Source: an uncultured Actinomycetes bacterium
GTDB lineage: Bacteria > Actinomycetota > Actinomycetes > Nanopelagicales > Nanopelagicaceae
Direction of reading: 5' to 3'
DNA: 53,746 nt
Assembly (NCBI GenBank): GCA_903873185.1
Contig: CAIQNN010000059.1
Coordinates: forward strand, 1-53,746
The position numbers and the translations under genes were made by a program. The first letter of the stretch is position 1. Every line of letters starts with the position of its first letter. The notes beneath the pieces are model-generated. The model did no database searches. It was given only the letters and a program-made list of their open reading frames with translations, and was not told the origin of the DNA. This document shows positions 11,661-19,161 of the stretch, one piece after another.

Positions 11661-12068
11661 ATGAGCGAATTTCTAGAAGAGATCAAAAAACGGGGCCGCG
11701 GCGCGCTAGATGAAAAAATGGGCATTGAAATAGTTGAAGCCAGCCCACAACGGTTAGTAGCAACCATGCCAGTTGCCGGGAATACTCAACCCATGGGGCT
11801 TCTGCATGGCGGGGCAAATGTCGTCCTTGCGGAGAGCTTGGGATCTATCGGAACACAACTGCATGCTGGCCGCGATCGCCGAATAGTTGGCGTGGACATC
11901 AACGCCACACACCATAAATCTGCAACAGCTGGAATCGTAACTGCGGTAGCAACAGCAATTTCGCTCGGCAAGACGCTCTGCTGCTACGAAGTTGTGATCA
12001 GCAACGACAAAGGCGAGCGAACTTGTACCGCCAGAATTACTTGTTTGATCTTGGCCGAACGAAGTTAG
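11661..12068 (+). CDS. PaaI-type hotdog-fold thioesterase
   Basis: A 135-residue single hotdog domain hydrolysing an acyl-CoA thioester, with the substrate not determinable. The active-site segment is NTQPMGLLHGGANVVLAES (residues 41-59), with the HGG turn and the catalytic acidic residue Glu58 as in PaaI/YdiI/EntH-like enzymes. A longer reading from TTG 11634 is possible, but ATG 11661 fits the family N-terminus (MSEFLEEIKKRG) and the leaderless-type -10 box, so I chose it. The homologous gene often sits between polA and neighbouring genes in actinobacteria. The stop overlaps the convergent livF stop. Confidence 0.85.
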   Translation: MSEFLEEIKKRGRGALDEKMGIEIVEASPQRLVATMPVAGNTQPMGLLHGGANVVLAESLGSIGTQLHAGRDRRIVGVDINATHHKSATAGIVTAVATAISLGKTLCCYEVVISNDKGERTCTARITCLILAERS

Positions 12069-12790
12069 TGGTTAGCCGCGCCGGTTCCTAGATATGCAGC
12101 TCGAACCGCTGGGTCATTAAGCAGATCTGAAGCCTTCGCTTCTTTAACAACGTGACCAGTTTCAAGAACGTAGGCACGATGTGCGCGTTGCAGCGCTTGC
12201 TGCGCATTCTGTTCAACCAGCAGGATTGTTGTACCCGTATTGTTGATCTCAGTAATGATGCGGAAAATATTAGCGATCATCATCGGTGCTAGGCCCATTG
12301 AAGGTTCATCCAACAAAAGTACCTTTGGACGAGCCATCAAAGCGCGGCCAATAGCCAACATCTGTTGCTCACCACCAGAAAGGGTTCCGCCAGCTTGAGT
12401 TGCACGTTCTTTCAATCGAGGAAAGAGGCTATAGACCTTTTCTAGGTCTTCGACCATCTCACTCTTGCGCTCTTTGCGAAAATACTTTCCGATCTCAAGG
12501 TTCTCTAAAACGGTCATGCCAGGAAAAATTCCGCGACCTTCCGGAGCTTGCGAGATTCCGAGTCCAACCCGCTCATGGGCTGGAACCTTTGAAATATCTT
12601 TGCCATCGAAAAGAATCTGTCCGCTAGCAACTGGGCGAAGACCTGAGATGGTTTTGAGCATGGTGGTCTTGCCAGCGCCGTTAGCACCAATCAAGGTGAC
12701 AATTTCGCCTTGATTAACTGTGATGCTAATACCTTTGATCGCTTCGATCTTCCCGTAAAAAACGTGGAGATCCTTAATTTCAAGACGCAT
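12065..12790 (-). CDS. livF: Branched-chain amino-acid ABC transporter ATP-binding protein LivF
   Basis: One of two ATPases that power branched-chain amino-acid uptake. It is 241 residues long, with Walker A GANGAGKT at 35-42, signature LSGGEQQ at 137-143 and Walker B LLLDEP at 158-163; FYGKIEAIKGIS and APEGRGIFPGMTVLENL are LivF hallmarks. The ATG lies inside the livG 3' end (11-base overlap), showing tight coupling. It is the last gene of the liv operon, ending convergently with the thioesterase gene. Confidence 0.93.
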   Translation of the reverse strand: MRLEIKDLHVFYGKIEAIKGISITVNQGEIVTLIGANGAGKTTMLKTISGLRPVASGQILFDGKDISKVPAHERVGLGISQAPEGRGIFPGMTVLENLEIGKYFRKERKSEMVEDLEKVYSLFPRLKERATQAGGTLSGGEQQMLAIGRALMARPKVLLLDEPSMGLAPMMIANIFRIITEINNTGTTILLVEQNAQQALQRAHRAYVLETGHVVKEAKASDLLNDPAVRAAYLGTGAANH

Positions 12791-13556
12791 CGGCAGGTGC
12801 TCCTAAATAGGCTTCAATAACCTTCGGATCATTTTGAACAACCGATGGGATGTCATCGGCAATCTTTACACCAAAGTCCAATACCGAAACGCGATCGGAG
12901 ATTCCCATGATCAGTGACATGTCGTGCTCGATCAAGAGAACGGTATAACCGGCATCTCTAATTTTGCGAATAGTTTCGGCTAGCGCAACTTTTTCAGCAG
13001 GGTTGAAGCCGGCGGCCGGCTCATCCAACAGGAGAAGCTTTGGTTCGGTGCCAAGTGCGCGGGCAATCTCAAGGCGTCGTTGATCGCCATAGGGCAGATT
13101 CTTACCGAGTTGGTCAGAGCGATGATCGATCCCCATAAACTTCAAGAGTTCGTGGGCGCGCTCTATCCCTTCACGCTCTTCCCGTCGAGCCCGTGGCGTG
13201 CCAAATAGCGCACCGACTAGACCAGATTTCTTGTGAACATCAGAGGCGGTCATGACATTTTCGAGCGAAGTCATTTCGCCAAAGAGGCGCACGTTCTGGA
13301 AGGTACGAGCAATACCGGATTCGGTAATTACATTTCGCTTCTTGCCAATCAAAGATTCGCCGTTAAAGAGGATCTCACCGCTGGTTGGTGTGTAAACACC
13401 AGTAACCACATTGAACACTGTCGTCTTGCCAGCACCGTTAGGCCCGATCAAGGCGCAAATCTCACCCTTATTGACGTGAAAGTTAACGCCATCCAGTGCG
13501 GAGACGCCGCCGAAGCGCATAGTGACATTTTGAAGATCTAGCACGCGATCAGACAT
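12780..13556 (-). CDS. livG: Branched-chain amino-acid ABC transporter ATP-binding protein LivG
   Basis: The partner ATPase of LivF in the branched-chain amino-acid importer. Its 258 residues carry Walker A GPNGAGKT at 38-45, the LivG-type signature LPYGDQRRLEIARAL in place of LSGGQ, Walker B LLLLDEPAAG and the GISDRVSVLDFG C-terminal segment. The start ATG 13556 lies within livM (8-base overlap). Its position between livM and livF matches the standard livHMGF order. Confidence 0.94.
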   Translation of the reverse strand: MSDRVLDLQNVTMRFGGVSALDGVNFHVNKGEICALIGPNGAGKTTVFNVVTGVYTPTSGEILFNGESLIGKKRNVITESGIARTFQNVRLFGEMTSLENVMTASDVHKKSGLVGALFGTPRARREEREGIERAHELLKFMGIDHRSDQLGKNLPYGDQRRLEIARALGTEPKLLLLDEPAAGFNPAEKVALAETIRKIRDAGYTVLLIEHDMSLIMGISDRVSVLDFGVKIADDIPSVVQNDPKVIEAYLGAPADAS

Positions 13557-14604
13557 TCTGCTCCCCTTCTACTGCCAATGGCTGAACTGTTTTGTGCAAT
13601 TTCTCTCGCTTCTTTCGCGGCAAGAGACCATCGGGGCGAACGTTCATAATAATTACTAAGGCCAAGCCGAAGACTAATTGACGGGCATTGGAGATAAAGC
13701 GGATGCGCTCGGGAAGGTAGGCCAAGATTGTTCCACCGAGTACAACTCCCCAAATATTTCCCATTCCGCCAAAGACCACGCAACTTAGAATGAGTACTGA
13801 AATATTGAAGGTGAACATATCTGGTGCGACGTACATGGATTTGGAGGCGAAGATTACGCCGGCAGCTCCACCGATGGCGGCACCGATACTAAAAGACCAA
13901 ATCTTATACTTGAGCGTTGCAACTCCCATAAGCATGGCAACATCTTCATCTTGGCGAATGGCTTCCCAAGCGCGACCAGGTCGACGAATTGAGAGACGAC
14001 GAACCATCCAAATCACCAACAAAATCATCACCAAGATAATCCAGAAGAAGCCCTGCATATTATCCAGCGCAAACCGGACGCCAAAAATAGATGGTGGGTT
14101 TGGCACGTTTGCAATTCCGTTAGGTCCGCCAGTTGCGCGGTTATTTACAGCCACAATTCGAACAATTTCACCGAAGCCCAAAGTTACGATTGCTAAGTAG
14201 TCGCCTCGGAGTCTAAGAGTAGGCAGACCAAGGAGCACGCCCGAAAGCATCGCCAATCCCATACCAATTGGCATGATCTCCCAAATATTAAGATGCGTTT
14301 TGGTCCCAAGAATTGCGGCGGTGTAAGCGCCGATTGCAAAGAAGGCTACGTAACCTAAGTCGAGCAGACCGCTTTTACCCACCACAATATTGAGGCCCAA
14401 GGACATTAGAACGAAAATGCCAACCGGATAAACCAATACCGCTTGATAGGAAGAGATCGGGGTATTAAGAAAGCTCGAGAAGGAGTAATCCCCGGCGAAG
14501 GGCAAGAGCACTATGACTGCCAAAAGTAGGATTACAAAGGTAGTTCGCTTAGGCCGATTCCAGTTCTCCCAAAGTTCGGCACCACGATCGCGGATATTTA
14601 TCAT
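13549..14604 (-). CDS. livM: Branched-chain amino-acid ABC transporter permease LivM
   Basis: An inner-membrane permease of 351 residues with about nine or ten hydrophobic segments. It forms the channel with LivH. LivM features include SLGLNIVVGKSGLLDLGYVA, RLRGDYLAIVTLGFGEIVR and GGAAGVIFASKSM followed by VVFGGMGNIWGVVLGG. A charged C-terminal tail follows the last membrane span. It starts two bases after the livH stop and overlaps livG. Confidence 0.93.
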   Translation of the reverse strand: MINIRDRGAELWENWNRPKRTTFVILLLAVIVLLPFAGDYSFSSFLNTPISSYQAVLVYPVGIFVLMSLGLNIVVGKSGLLDLGYVAFFAIGAYTAAILGTKTHLNIWEIMPIGMGLAMLSGVLLGLPTLRLRGDYLAIVTLGFGEIVRIVAVNNRATGGPNGIANVPNPPSIFGVRFALDNMQGFFWIILVMILLVIWMVRRLSIRRPGRAWEAIRQDEDVAMLMGVATLKYKIWSFSIGAAIGGAAGVIFASKSMYVAPDMFTFNISVLILSCVVFGGMGNIWGVVLGGTILAYLPERIRFISNARQLVFGLALVIIMNVRPDGLLPRKKREKLHKTVQPLAVEGEQNV

Positions 14605-14606
14605 CG

Positions 14607-15560
14607 CTATACCCTCGTTTGCTGAACAGCTTCACCAAAGAGGCCGTTCGGTTTGAATAGTAGGACCAAGACCAGAACTAAAAAGACGGTAACTGATTTC
14701 CACTGTGTGCCCAAAATTGCGGCTGCAAATTCCTCGAGCAATCCAAGAGAGAGGCCGCCAAGGAAGGCACCGCGCAGGTTTCCGATTCCCCCAAGGACAG
14801 CGGCCGTGAATGCCGCCAGACCAATAGAGAAGCCGACGTTATATTTGGTATTTTCGTAAACCGTTTCGTACAAGAAAGCGGCGGCACCAGTCATCATTCC
14901 ACCTATGAGGAAGGTCGCTGAAATAACGCGGTTTAGATTCACGCCCATGAGCTTTGAAGTTTCCTCGCTCATTGATACCGCACGAATAGCCTTACCGAGC
15001 AAGGTTTTACTAACGAAACGATCTACCAAGAAGAAAAGAATCGCAGCGAAGAAAATTACCAAAAGTGTGTCGACGCGCAATCCAACTGAGCCGATATTGA
15101 AAATGTAGGCCTTACGCAATAAGCGCGGGTTCGACATCGGAACTGAGTGCGTCAGAATTCGAACGCCTTCTTGCAGAATAATTGAGACGCCGATTGCGGA
15201 AATTAGGCTCGCAAGACGGTTAGTGCCCTTCGCGCGCAGGCGGCGGTAGGCGACAATTTCAACAAGCACTGCGGTTACGCCGGAAACCAACATTGAGGCC
15301 AACAAACATGCGCCCAAGGTATAGACCAACTTAAAGCCGTGCAGCGGGTCGGTATTTTGATTAAAGCCAAAGAAATTCCGCGAGACGATCACGGTAGCAA
15401 AAGTGCCCACCATGAAGATTTCCGAGTTGGCAAAGTTGATCAGGCGAAGAACGCCATAAACCATGGTGTAACCCAGGGAGATCAAAACATAGATAAAACC
15501 AAGGGCGAGACCATTAATTAACAATGGCCAGAACTGCGACACCACAACGGAAAAGTTCAT
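14607..15560 (-). CDS. livH: Branched-chain amino-acid ABC transporter permease LivH
   Basis: Second channel-forming permease of the branched-chain amino-acid importer, 317 residues with about eight spans. Typical LivH segments are LALGFIYVLISLGYTMVYGVLRLINFA near the N-terminus, the cytoplasmic loop GKAIRAVSMSEETSKLMGVN and AAVLGGIGNLRGAFLGG. The frame extends to TTG 15581, but ATG 15560 places the first membrane span at the usual distance and is preferred. No strong Shine-Dalgarno is seen for either. A 16-bp hairpin separates it from livJ, probably lowering permease output relative to the binding protein. Confidence 0.92.
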   Translation of the reverse strand: MNFSVVVSQFWPLLINGLALGFIYVLISLGYTMVYGVLRLINFANSEIFMVGTFATVIVSRNFFGFNQNTDPLHGFKLVYTLGACLLASMLVSGVTAVLVEIVAYRRLRAKGTNRLASLISAIGVSIILQEGVRILTHSVPMSNPRLLRKAYIFNIGSVGLRVDTLLVIFFAAILFFLVDRFVSKTLLGKAIRAVSMSEETSKLMGVNLNRVISATFLIGGMMTGAAAFLYETVYENTKYNVGFSIGLAAFTAAVLGGIGNLRGAFLGGLSLGLLEEFAAAILGTQWKSVTVFLVLVLVLLFKPNGLFGEAVQQTRV

Positions 15561-15609
15561 TAGACCCAATTCATGAAACAAAATTTAATGAGAATTCTTC
15601 TAACATTTG

Positions 15610-15644
15610 AAATATCTCCCAGCGCTTTGCGCTGGGAGATATTT
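15610..15644 (-). terminator. Perfect 16-bp hairpin between livJ and livH
   Basis: Positions 15610-15625 and 15629-15644 are exact inverted complements around a three-base loop. The G+C-rich core is CTCCCAGCGC/GCGCTGGGAG, flanked by A/T pairs. There is no long T tract after it on the minus strand (ATATTTCAAATG), so it is either a leaky terminator or a 3'-protecting stem for livJ mRNA. It lies 35 bases after the livJ stop, inside the operon. Confidence 0.75.
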
Positions 15645-15679
15645 AACTAATCTTTACTGCTTATCAATAACTTCGAGGC

Positions 15680-16846
15680 TTAAACTGCGCCGAAGTACTT
15701 GATGATTCCCTTAACAACCTGGAAGCCACCAACTGGTGCGCCACCAACAACTTCACCCTGACGGGTGAACTTGAGAACAGTCTTGCCATCTAGAGCAAGG
15801 AAGGTTCCGGTAGCAACACACTGCTGGATACCAGCGCGAGTTAGCTTGCCAAGCTTGATGCAAGACAAGAAAACGTTGGTTGCGTTAAAGGTTTCAGTTA
15901 CGTAGACGTGGCCAGCAGCAGTCTTAAGGCCAGTGGCCTTTGTGAATGCGACTTGCTGAGCATCTGTTGCAGCGGTTTCGAATGGAACTGCTGGAGCGGT
16001 GAACTTTGCGCCTTCGGCAGCAGCTTTACCAGCTACACCAATAAATGCATCGTTCAAGACGCCGTCGCCGCCGGCGAAGACGCCAGCCCAACCGGAGTCA
16101 TTCAGAGCCTTGGCAAGTGCGCCACCATCTGGGTAGTAACCGGTGTAGATAACAACGTTGGCCTTTGAGTTCTTGATCTTGGCAACAGTTGCGGTGTAAT
16201 CAGAAGTCTTCTGAACAACAGAGTCAGAACCGACTTCATTAACCTTCATCTTCTTGATGTAAGCGGTTGCAGCTTGTGCAAGTCCGGTTCCATAAGGAGT
16301 CTGGTCATCGATTACGTAAACCTTTGGTGATGAAACGCCATCAATTGACCAACGAACAACAGCTGGACCTTGAAGCGCATCGTTACCAACAACGCGGTGG
16401 AAGAATGGGAATCCATTGTCTGGTGACTTTGCATCGGTCAAGGTTACGCGAGTCGCAGATGGTGAAACCATCGTCAAGCGGGTTGCCTTGTATGAAGGGA
16501 ATGATGCGATTGAAGCGCCAGAGTATGCAGGTCCAATAAGTCCGATGACATTCTTGTTAGCAGCAACACCAGGTGCGACGGTTCCGGCAACTGCGCCTTC
16601 GCCTTGATCGTCAGCGGTGATGAGGGTGACCTTAACTGCAGGGTTTGAATCGTTGTACATCTGAACTGCTGTCTTTGCACCTAGCAGCTCATCTTGACCG
16701 GTCTGAGCATCAGTTCCGGTTAGTGGGCCTTGGTAAACCAAGGTGACTGACTTTGTTGCGGCTTGTGCGGTGGTAAGTGCAACTGAACCCAAAACAAGGG
16801 CTGCGGCAGCTACTACGCCAAGAACGCGCTGTGAGTTCTTGTTCAT
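15680..16846 (-). CDS. livJ: Branched-chain amino-acid ABC transporter substrate-binding protein LivJ
   Basis: Periplasmic-type binding protein (type I fold, Peripla_BP_6) that delivers Leu, Ile, Val or related substrates to LivHMGF. The 388-residue product starts at ATG 16846 with GGAAGG five bases upstream; the longer frame to 16918 adds residues without homologous character. Residues 1-29 are a Sec signal peptide (hydrophobic core VLGVVAAAALVLGSVAL, likely cut after TAQA). There is no Cys in this region, hence no lipobox, which is unusual for a binding protein in a single-membrane bacterium. The Ala/Gly/Lys/Val-rich composition with preferred codons suggests high expression. Substrate range is inferred from the family. 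Confidence 0.93.
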   Translation of the reverse strand: MNKNSQRVLGVVAAAALVLGSVALTTAQAATKSVTLVYQGPLTGTDAQTGQDELLGAKTAVQMYNDSNPAVKVTLITADDQGEGAVAGTVAPGVAANKNVIGLIGPAYSGASIASFPSYKATRLTMVSPSATRVTLTDAKSPDNGFPFFHRVVGNDALQGPAVVRWSIDGVSSPKVYVIDDQTPYGTGLAQAATAYIKKMKVNEVGSDSVVQKTSDYTATVAKIKNSKANVVIYTGYYPDGGALAKALNDSGWAGVFAGGDGVLNDAFIGVAGKAAAEGAKFTAPAVPFETAATDAQQVAFTKATGLKTAAGHVYVTETFNATNVFLSCIKLGKLTRAGIQQCVATGTFLALDGKTVLKFTRQGEVVGGAPVGGFQVVKGIIKYFGAV

Positions 16847-16890
16847 GTAGACCTTCCTGTTACTTAATCCCGGGACAGGGAGGAGTGAAG

Positions 16891-16918
16891 GGTATAGGTG
16901 AACAGGTGGTGAATTCAA
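16891..16918 (-). promoter_or_regulatory. Probable livJ promoter
   Basis: On the minus strand TTGAAT (16913-16918) is followed after 16 bases by TATACC (16891-16896). Transcription would start about 35-40 bases before the livJ ATG, leaving room for its GGAAGG ribosome binding site. It is the only promoter-like match in the 139-base gap between the regulator and livJ. Confidence 0.5.
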
Positions 16919-16985: not shown

Positions 16986-17588
16986 TTAACGTTCCGGAAC
17001 CGACTCTGGGGAGATTACGGCTTGGGCAACCTGTTTCATCGTCATTCGGCGATCCATCGCAGCCCGCTGGATCCAACTGAAAGCCGCCGGCTCCGAAAGA
17101 TTTAAGGCTTGCATGAGGATGCCTTTTGCTCGATCGATGACTTTGCGAGCCTCAAGCCGCTCGTGTAGATCGGCAACCTCAGTTTGCAGCGCGCGTAGCT
17201 GTTGATGGCGACTCATGGCAATTTCTATGGCAGGAACTAGATCAGAGATACTGAAAGGTTTCACGACATAGGCCATGGCGCCCGCATCGCGAGCGCGCTC
17301 TACTAATTCTCGCTGGCTAAAGGCGGTAAGCATCAGGCAGGGCGCGATTGCAATAATCTCTTGCGCTGCTGAGATCCCATCAAGCTCCGGCATTTTTACA
17401 TCCAGAATAGCCAAATCAGGCTTATGAGCTTTTGCGAGCGCGATCGCCTCTACCCCGTTGCTAGCTTGAGCAACGACCTCATAGCCGGCCTCAGTCAGCA
17501 TTTCGACCAGATCTAATCGAATAATTGCCTCATCTTCGGCAACCAGAATTCGCCCTCTTGAGGCTGGAAGTGGCGTAATGGAGCTCAT
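16986..17588 (-). CDS. pdtaR: ANTAR-domain response regulator (PdtaR/Rv1626 type)
   Basis: A 200-residue two-component regulator acting on RNA rather than DNA. The receiver domain spans about residues 12-128, with the acidic pair Glu18/Asp19, phosphoacceptor Asp63 (LDVKMPELDG), Thr88 and Lys110. A short helical linker leads to an ANTAR domain at about 135-191 (KVIDRAKGILM...), which in related proteins binds paired stem-loops and prevents termination. The histidine kinase PdtaS is not in the window. The only plausible start is ATG 17588, one base after the discriminator base of the upstream tRNA, so it has no ribosome binding site of its own. Its position ahead of the liv operon matches other actinobacteria; a role in liv control is not shown by the sequence. 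Confidence 0.9.
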   Translation of the reverse strand: MSSITPLPASRGRILVAEDEAIIRLDLVEMLTEAGYEVVAQASNGVEAIALAKAHKPDLAILDVKMPELDGISAAQEIIAIAPCLMLTAFSQRELVERARDAGAMAYVVKPFSISDLVPAIEIAMSRHQQLRALQTEVADLHERLEARKVIDRAKGILMQALNLSEPAAFSWIQRAAMDRRMTMKQVAQAVISPESVPER

Positions 17589-17589
17589 G

Positions 17590-17662
17590 TGCCTCGAGTC
17601 GGATTTGAACCGACACTGTGCGGATTTTGAGTCCGCCCTCTCTACCGTTGGAGTACCGAGGC
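17590..17662 (-). tRNA. tRNA with anticodon CAA (leucine codon UUG), short variable loop
   Basis: A 73-base cloverleaf can be drawn: acceptor GCCTCGG pairing with TCGAGGC (one G-U), D arm with 3 pairs (CTC/GAG) and the GG of the loop, anticodon stem GCGGA/TCCGC with loop CTCAAAA (anticodon CAA, U33 and A37 present), variable loop ACAGT of only five bases, T arm GTCGG-TTCAAAT-CCGAC and discriminator A. CCA is not encoded. The anticodon predicts leucine, but bacterial tRNA-Leu normally has a long variable arm, so this is a class I body with a leucine anticodon. Position 13-22 is a C-A mismatch and position 21 is G. It lies between pyk and the ANTAR regulator. That it is a tRNA-like gene is near certain; the amino acid it carries is less so. 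Confidence 0.88.
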
Positions 17663-17691: not shown

Positions 17692-17697
17692 ATTATA
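17692..17697 (-). promoter_or_regulatory. -10 box (TATAAT) of the tRNA-regulator transcript
   Basis: A perfect TATAAT on the minus strand, 29 bases before the tRNA 5' end and 22 bases after the pyk stop, would start transcription near 17685. A -35 is not obvious. It implies the tRNA and the following regulator gene have their own promoter, independent of pyk. Confidence 0.65.
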
Positions 17698-17718: not shown

Positions 17719-19161
17719 TTACTTCCGATAGGCCAGCGCTACGCCCTCAACGGCATCGCCAATTTTATGAACTCTCATCGCATTGGTGGAGCCCGGAATT
17801 CCTGGGGGTGCGCCTGCAACGATCATGATCGTCTCGCCTTTTTGGGCTCGTCCGGTGGAGAGTAATAAGGAATCAACCTGTTTTACCATTTCATCGGTGT
17901 GATCAACGGTCGGGGTAATCATTGACTCAACCCCCCATGAAAGGGCGAGTTGGTTATAGACCGCGATCTCAGGAGTTAACGCCAGGATTGGAATTGCTGA
18001 GCGCAACCTGGCCATCCGACGAGCCGAATCGCCACTTTGCGTGAAGGCAACCAAGAACTTGGCGCCGACTATGGCTCCAACCTCAGCTGCAGCTTTGGTT
18101 ATTGCTCCACCCTTGGTTCGTGGGTTGTGTTTTAGCGCTGGAATCTGATCGAGCATCGCCTCTTCGGTCCGCTCAACAATTCGCGCCATCGTTTGAACTG
18201 CTTGAATCGCAAAATCGCCAACGCTGGTCTCCCCCGAAAGCATTAACGCATCGGCGCCATCTAAAACGGCATTTGCGCAGTCGGTCGCCTCAGCTCGAGT
18301 AGGAGTGGAGTTGGTAATCATAGAATCGAGCATCTGGGTGGCAACGATTACTGGCTTTGCCGACTCTCGAGCAAGCGTGACGCATCTTTTCTGAACTAAT
18401 GGAACTTCCTCAATTGGAAGTTCAACGCCTAAATCACCGCGGGCAACCATGATGCCATCAAACGCCGCCACGATCTCTTCGAGATTCTCTACCGCTTGTG
18501 GCTTTTCGATCTTTGCAATAACTGGTCTGCGGATACCTTCTTCATCCATGATGCGGTGAACATCTTTGATGTCATCAGCGCTGCGCACAAAAGAGAGCGC
18601 AATAAAATCAGCGCCAGCGTGGAGCCCCCAACGAAGATCTTCAATATCTTTCTCCGACATTGCGGGAACTGATACGGCAACACCAGGAAGATTTATACCT
18701 TTATTATTAGAAACAAATCCAGGTTGGATAACTTTGGTTACAACATCGTTTCCTTTAACTTCGAGAACTTCGACGGTAACTTTGCCATCGTCGATAAGAA
18801 TGCGATCACCGGCTTTGCAATCACCGGGTAAGCCTTTAAAGGTAGTTCCGACTCGCTCCTTGGTTCCAACAACCTCATCGGTAGTAATCGTGAAAATATC
18901 GCCGCGAAAGAGTTCATGCGGACCAGCAGCAAAGCGCGCCAAGCGAATCTTTGGGCCCTGGAGATCGACCAAAATTGCCACGGGTCGACCCGCAGCTGCG
19001 GCTGCGGCACGAACTAGGTCTAGTCGACTTTGGTGCTCCGGATAACCACCGTGGGAGAGATTTAGCCTTGCCATATTCATTCCGGCGGCAATTAGCTCAT
19101 GAACCTTTTCTGGCGATTCAACAGCTGGACCCATGGTGCAAACAATCTTCGCTCTACGCAT
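17719..19161 (-). CDS. pyk: Pyruvate kinase
   Basis: Transfers phosphate from phosphoenolpyruvate to ADP, the last step of glycolysis. The 480 residues begin RRAKIVCTMGPA, carry the substrate loop MNMARLNLSHG, the active-site segment RPVIAKIEKPQAVENL with the catalytic Lys, MVARGDLGVELP and DGADALMLSGETSVG, and end in the allosteric domain. The length is typical of actinobacterial enzymes. ATG 19161 follows the gltD stop by ten bases and has no clear Shine-Dalgarno; a TAAGGT hexamer seven bases upstream could give a leaderless transcript. Confidence 0.97.
   Translation of the reverse strand: MRRAKIVCTMGPAVESPEKVHELIAAGMNMARLNLSHGGYPEHQSRLDLVRAAAAAAGRPVAILVDLQGPKIRLARFAAGPHELFRGDIFTITTDEVVGTKERVGTTFKGLPGDCKAGDRILIDDGKVTVEVLEVKGNDVVTKVIQPGFVSNNKGINLPGVAVSVPAMSEKDIEDLRWGLHAGADFIALSFVRSADDIKDVHRIMDEEGIRRPVIAKIEKPQAVENLEEIVAAFDGIMVARGDLGVELPIEEVPLVQKRCVTLARESAKPVIVATQMLDSMITNSTPTRAEATDCANAVLDGADALMLSGETSVGDFAIQAVQTMARIVERTEEAMLDQIPALKHNPRTKGGAITKAAAEVGAIVGAKFLVAFTQSGDSARRMARLRSAIPILALTPEIAVYNQLALSWGVESMITPTVDHTDEMVKQVDSLLLSTGRAQKGETIMIVAGAPPGIPGSTNAMRVHKIGDAVEGVALAYRK

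Follow-up and report, generated by a model that had tools for sequence, protein, structure and literature searches.

Textbooks and reviews hold that bacterial tRNA-Leu is class II, with an obligatory long extra arm. The locus described here raises the question of what a bacterial tRNA can be when it carries a leucine anticodon on a body with a five-base variable loop. It lies in a 53,746-nt contig of an uncultured member of the Nanopelagicaceae (the whole of this stretch is called the window below), and a preliminary description offered three readings: a real but atypical leucine acceptor, a tRNA charged by another synthetase with UUG recoded, or a tRNA-like regulatory RNA. Of the three, the first is the one that our analysis supports. 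We hold with high confidence that the gene encodes a functional, plain tRNA-Leu for UUG with a class I body, a member of a single actinobacterial class I group and most likely charged by LeuRS, and that its locus has undergone swaps of tRNA class and a family-specific inversion.

Structure of the tRNA gene

Positions 17662..17590 of the minus strand encode an intact class I tRNA, 73 nt long, whose anticodon is CAA; ARAGORN calls it tRNA-Leu (caa). A covariance search places the gene well within the tRNA family: Rfam RF00005 matches 17590-17662 with 55.7 bits (E 5.6e-11), above the gathering score of 29. The sequence reads GCCUCGG UA CUCC AACGGUAG AGAG G GCGGA CUCAAAA UCCGC ACAGU GUCGG UUCAAAU CCGAC UCGAGGC A. 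Its cloverleaf is intact, with an acceptor stem of 7 bp, an anticodon stem of 5 bp and a D stem of only 3 bp, and the complete fold, CAA anticodon and 5-nt variable loop claimed at first are all borne out. The relevant features are as follows.

17590..17662, minus strand: tRNA-Leu(CAA), class I body, 73 nt, without encoded CCA (ARAGORN; Rfam tRNA, 55.7 bits)
17627..17629, minus strand: anticodon CAA, in loop CUCAAAA (sequence, ARAGORN)
17615..17619, minus strand: variable loop ACAGU, 5 nt, the final base being U48 of the A15-U48 pair (sequence and locus comparison)
17638..17653, minus strand: D arm with the tRNA-Leu features A14, A15, G18G19, A20a, G21 and unpaired C13/A22 (sequence and comparison)

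The variable loop falls in the class I range of 4-5 nt, as do those of all 41 class I members found at the same locus in other genomes (see below), and is far from the 10 nt or more of a class II arm. The C13-A22 mismatch and G21, taken at first as signs of an atypical molecule, are indeed present but are not atypical: both G21 and an unpaired 13-22 occur in the majority of the 57 tRNA-Leu genes at this locus, in both classes. On the plus strand, 17589-17662 gives a sub-threshold Rfam match to the Plastid-ycf2 5'UTR (34.1 bits against a threshold of 65.7), which we set aside; that family perhaps holds an antisense tRNA-like stretch.

UUA and UUG are decoded as leucine

UUG is the commonest leucine codon in the window, at 23 per 1000 with UUA at 14.8 per 1000, and together the two account for 632 of the 1686 leucine codons in its main genes (37%). 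We compared the UvrA gene with 29 homologues from genomes of the phylum. Leucine stands in the homologues at 83% for UUA positions and 75% for UUG positions, against 71-85% for CUN, with no sign that UUG corresponds to another amino acid. UUA or UUG fills 18 of the 46 conserved leucine columns, and the homologues mostly have CUG or CUC at these positions. Judged from this alignment, UUA and UUG are decoded as leucine in the organism. A point on the other side is that UUG may be read in part by tRNA-Leu(UAA) too.

This comparison refutes the suggestion that a synthetase other than LeuRS charges the tRNA and that UUG is thereby recoded. A class I body without a long arm would suit synthetases other than LeuRS. 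We reject recoding because UUA and UUG match leucine in the UvrA homologues about as well as CUN does and because the assembly contains a full-length bacterial LeuRS gene (a single one, at G000:C51). It is further contradicted by tRNA-Leu(UAA), the sole UUA reader found in closed relatives, which shares the same class I body; by the full and invariant set of LeuRS-type D-arm and hinge bases together with A73; and by sister genomes that carry a class II tRNA-Leu at the same locus. Taken together, these points make recoding extremely improbable.

Leucine identity without a long arm

E. coli LeuRS needs A73, A15-U48, G18G19 and A20a, and the long arm is dispensable; charging persists even in a truncated tRNA-Leu that has lost both the variable arm and the anticodon arm (reviewed in PMC9976931). 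Human mitochondrial tRNA-Leu(UUR), also devoid of the long arm, is recognised via A73 and A14 (PMC9976931). The window tRNA carries the full set given in that review: A73, A14, A15-U48, G18G19 and A20a. In the same genome, A15-U48 and A73 are also found in the other four leucine tRNAs, class I and class II alike, and 28 of the 37 non-leucine tRNAs have G15-C48. All 57 tRNA-Leu(CAA) genes at the locus, of both classes, have U8, A14, A15, A20a, A22, U48 and A73.

The window tRNA is most likely charged by the ordinary bacterial LeuRS through A73 and the D-loop and hinge elements A14, A15-U48, G18G19 and A20a, none of which requires a long arm. A parallel in a well-known system is animal mitochondrial tRNA-Leu(UUR), likewise a leucine acceptor without a long arm and recognised by A73 and A14 (PMC9976931). 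It is organellar, however, and served by its own mt-LeuRS, whereas the window tRNA belongs to a bacterium that has tRNA-Leu of both classes.

Leucine tRNAs of the genome and its closed relatives

In the genome that contains the window, the tRNA-Leu species with anticodons UAG, GAG and CAG are class II, and those with UAA (G000:C60:48-120) and CAA are class I. As the assembly is a draft, its tRNA list alone cannot prove a class II copy absent, and we therefore listed the tRNAs of two closed relatives, each a single contig and 100% complete. Both have six tRNAs of at least 79 nt, namely Leu UAG, Leu GAG, three Ser and Tyr; their UAA and CAA tRNAs are class I. The second, class II tRNA-Leu(CAA) whose existence the preliminary description had asked about was thus not found in these two relatives, nor was any other class II tRNA-Leu(YAA). 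In the window's own assembly (97.7% complete) tRNA-Phe, Asp, Glu(UUC) and Lys(UUU) were not found, which probably reflects a collapsed or absent tRNA cluster. One closed relative also has a low-scoring tRNA of 44 bits with an odd body, called Ala(TGC), at G018:C1:958859-958932 (L373).

Comparison among the genera of the window's family that were examined shows stems that are identical or changed in compensated pairs, the anticodon stem included, with the CAA anticodon constant; neither lost pairing nor a freely varying anticodon, as in a decaying tRNA, is seen among the relatives. An apparent loss of the CAA tRNA in several genera was rejected: the gene is present at the ANTAR locus there with the anticodon loop CUCAAAC, and our search pattern had required A38.

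These observations bear on the possibility that the element is a tRNA-like regulator or ANTAR leader without a translational role, or a tRNA in decay. Such a role would fit the 1-nt spacing between the tRNA and the start codon of ANTAR, conserved as described below. It is at odds with the closed relatives, where the CAA tRNA found is the class I gene only, one of just two kinds of YAA tRNA found there, and with the compensated stem changes around a constant anticodon. Outside the family, moreover, the same tRNA nearly always lies on the strand opposite to ANTAR, so that its conservation does not depend on a leader role. We consider a non-translational or decaying element very improbable.

Class I tRNA-Leu across Actinobacteria

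A pattern combining the tRNA-Leu D-arm spacing with a short loop matches at least 117 stretches in public genomes. Among the matches listed, most come from Actinobacteria (Mycobacterium, Nocardia, Corynebacterium, Bifidobacterium, Streptomyces, Nocardioides and others) and few from other phyla. Within 36 genomes checked with patterns that are not exhaustive, class I UAA is the only UAA form matched in many named actinobacteria, and the CAA form is either class I or class II; a Mycolicibacter genome has class I UAA and CAA. Far from being a peculiarity of the genome studied here, class I tRNA-Leu(UAA/CAA) occurs widely among Actinobacteria.

The actinobacterial class I tRNA-Leu(UAA) shares with the window tRNA the 5-nt loop, the D arm, A15-U48 and A73, and differs in its anticodon and locus. 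A mixed set like that of the window's genome is also suggested for M. tuberculosis: one report names tRNA-Leu-2, 3 and 5 as long-loop, which implies that the others are short, apparently without remarking on this (PMC11541572). One short-loop tRNA-Leu(TAG) has been reported from a mycobacterial tRNA cluster (PMC6582537).

Two further cases stand apart. A Rokuibacteriota MAG (the genome of L069) apparently has both class I and class II tRNA-Leu(UAA), at G174:C123:627-655 and G174:C245:29108-29146. An Actinomycetes MAG contig carries two tandem class I tRNA genes with YAA anticodons and unusual bodies (L101:4934-5059), perhaps part of a phage-like tRNA array.

Class switching at the ANTAR locus

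The nearest neighbours of the tRNA are the ANTAR gene and pyruvate kinase.

16986..17588, minus strand: ANTAR-type response regulator gene (family name from the first reading), start codon 1 nt after the tRNA
17719..19161, minus strand: pyruvate kinase gene, next to the tRNA on its upstream side; relatives likewise show the C-terminal reading frame of this gene upstream of the tRNA

The neighbours claimed at the outset, the ANTAR regulator at 16986-17588 and a branched-chain importer, are present, the latter as Liv-type importer genes at 12065-16918. A functional tie was proposed for both. Its ANTAR part is borne out to some extent by conserved adjacency and, in the window's family, by the 1-nt junction; for leucine sensing or a link with the importer we found nothing in support.

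We surveyed the locus by a class-wide search for the ANTAR protein followed by tRNA calls, which gave 60 loci; twelve belong to the window's family. A tRNA-Leu(CAA) adjoins the ANTAR gene in 57 of the 60; 41 are class I and 16 class II, and the class sometimes differs within one family or even one genus (f19 g35). Across sister genomes the class II tRNA-Leu(CAA) of this locus has the same anticodon, A73, A14, A15-U48, G18G19, A20a and unpaired 13-22, but nearly all class I members, besides being without the long arm, have A9 where class II has G9, and C13 where it has G13.

Mapped onto the ANTAR protein tree, the distribution of classes is most simply explained by 11 switches, of which at least seven are forced by well-supported branches. 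When the variable region is left out of the tree of tRNA bodies, a single branch (SH-aLRT 98) separates class I from class II, and a tree from the acceptor and T arm only needs three class changes; both trees rest on few columns, and the differences at positions 9 and 13 may be structural consequences of the arm. Because at least seven switches on the ANTAR tree coincide with class I bodies that form one sequence group, the history of the locus is likely one of repeated in-place replacement of the whole gene from two old tRNA-Leu lineages. The clean split of bodies by class could in part reflect structural co-variation instead of replacement.

For the evolutionary step alone, repeated deletion of the class II variable arm in place offers another route to class I bodies, and at least seven switches at one locus would agree with it. 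We regard it as unlikely: the class I bodies of many families still cluster when the comparison is restricted to acceptor and T-arm columns, and class I and class II bodies from one family share about 66% of positions, fewer than the 74% shared by class I bodies across families. Under replacement, the preferred reading, the two classes have taken each other's place several times at the locus, which suggests that they are interchangeable in function there and that the long arm is optional.

The tRNA-ANTAR junction in the window's family

In other families the tRNA and ANTAR almost always occupy opposite strands, and genus g6 of the window's family retains this arrangement. In the other family genera examined the tRNA is inverted and shares the strand of ANTAR. 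A separate same-strand case is L344 (G181, family f7), with roughly 100 nt between the tRNA-Leu(CAA) and the conserved protein motif. Two features of the window are relevant here.

17589..17589, minus strand: one C separating A73 of the tRNA from the start codon of ANTAR (locus comparison)
17692..17697, minus strand: TATAAT, candidate -10 element of the putative tRNA-ANTAR transcript (sequence, TANANT enrichment; inference)

At 64 distinct loci, exactly one C stands between A73 and the start codon, which is ATG at 56 and GTG at 8, so that the tRNA all but abuts the coding sequence on the same strand; the codons that come next diverge freely. The ANTAR protein of L290 begins MAYRIVVAEDE, which leaves no other plausible start. 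A TANANT element is found upstream of the tRNA at 84% of the 64 loci compared with 26% in shuffles, a form picked after viewing these sequences, and part of the enrichment may stem from pyk stop codons (TAG/TAA) in the stretch. A strict -10 score of TATAAT matches is not clearly above shuffles (33% vs 26%).

The junction at 64 loci and the upstream TANANT together suggest a single tRNA-mRNA transcript. As a result of the inversion, the 3' end of the tRNA stands 1 nt short of the start codon of ANTAR; the tRNA and ANTAR are probably transcribed as one, and cleavage after A73 would leave an almost leaderless mRNA starting 5'-C-AUG. In mycobacteria, leaderless messages with ATG or GTG starts are translated efficiently (PMC4633059), and the predicted ANTAR message would differ from such actinobacterial mRNAs by one extra C. 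The arrangement recalls mitochondrial tRNA punctuation, where a tRNA abuts a start codon, but would concern just one gene, in a bacterium, with a C added ahead of the start codon and putative processing.

We tentatively propose, with somewhat less than even confidence, that in this family the tRNA replaces the 5' leader of ANTAR and that maturation of its 3' end releases the C-AUG message, tying synthesis of the presumed RNA-binding regulator to the transcription and maturation of the UUG tRNA, with the long arm exchangeable in evolution. As regards the processing step, the 1-nt junction might instead be a by-product of genome compaction, with ANTAR translated from an unprocessed or partly processed transcript and the acceptor-strand GAGG acting as its ribosome-binding site. 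This competing account, possible although rather doubtful, draws on the small genomes of the family (0.7-2.2 Mb) and on the GAGG or GGGG just before C-A-C-AUG; against it, all 64 distinct loci have the same spacing despite free divergence of the codons after the start, and pairing within the tRNA engages the G-rich strand.

Discussion

The gene itself is an ordinary tRNA annotation. A search of the searchable literature, in which subscription coverage is limited and a prior description is possible, returned no direct account of class I bacterial tRNA-Leu or of a tRNA-punctuated bacterial mRNA. What appears undescribed there is that a major bacterial class departs from the class II rule for tRNA-Leu, with switching in place, and likewise the strict tRNA-ANTAR junction.

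The findings bear on tRNA gene-calling rules that hold a short-arm tRNA-Leu suspect. The repeated exchange of the two tRNA classes at a single locus is a natural series that makes LeuRS recognition testable without engineered mutants, and the ANTAR junction is a candidate for a bacterial tRNA-punctuated message. Class I UAA or CAA tRNAs are found in genomes of mycobacteria, Streptomyces and Bifidobacterium as well, and in the small-genome actinobacterial family of the window the only decoders of UUA and UUG found are class I, contrary to the class II rule of the reviews.
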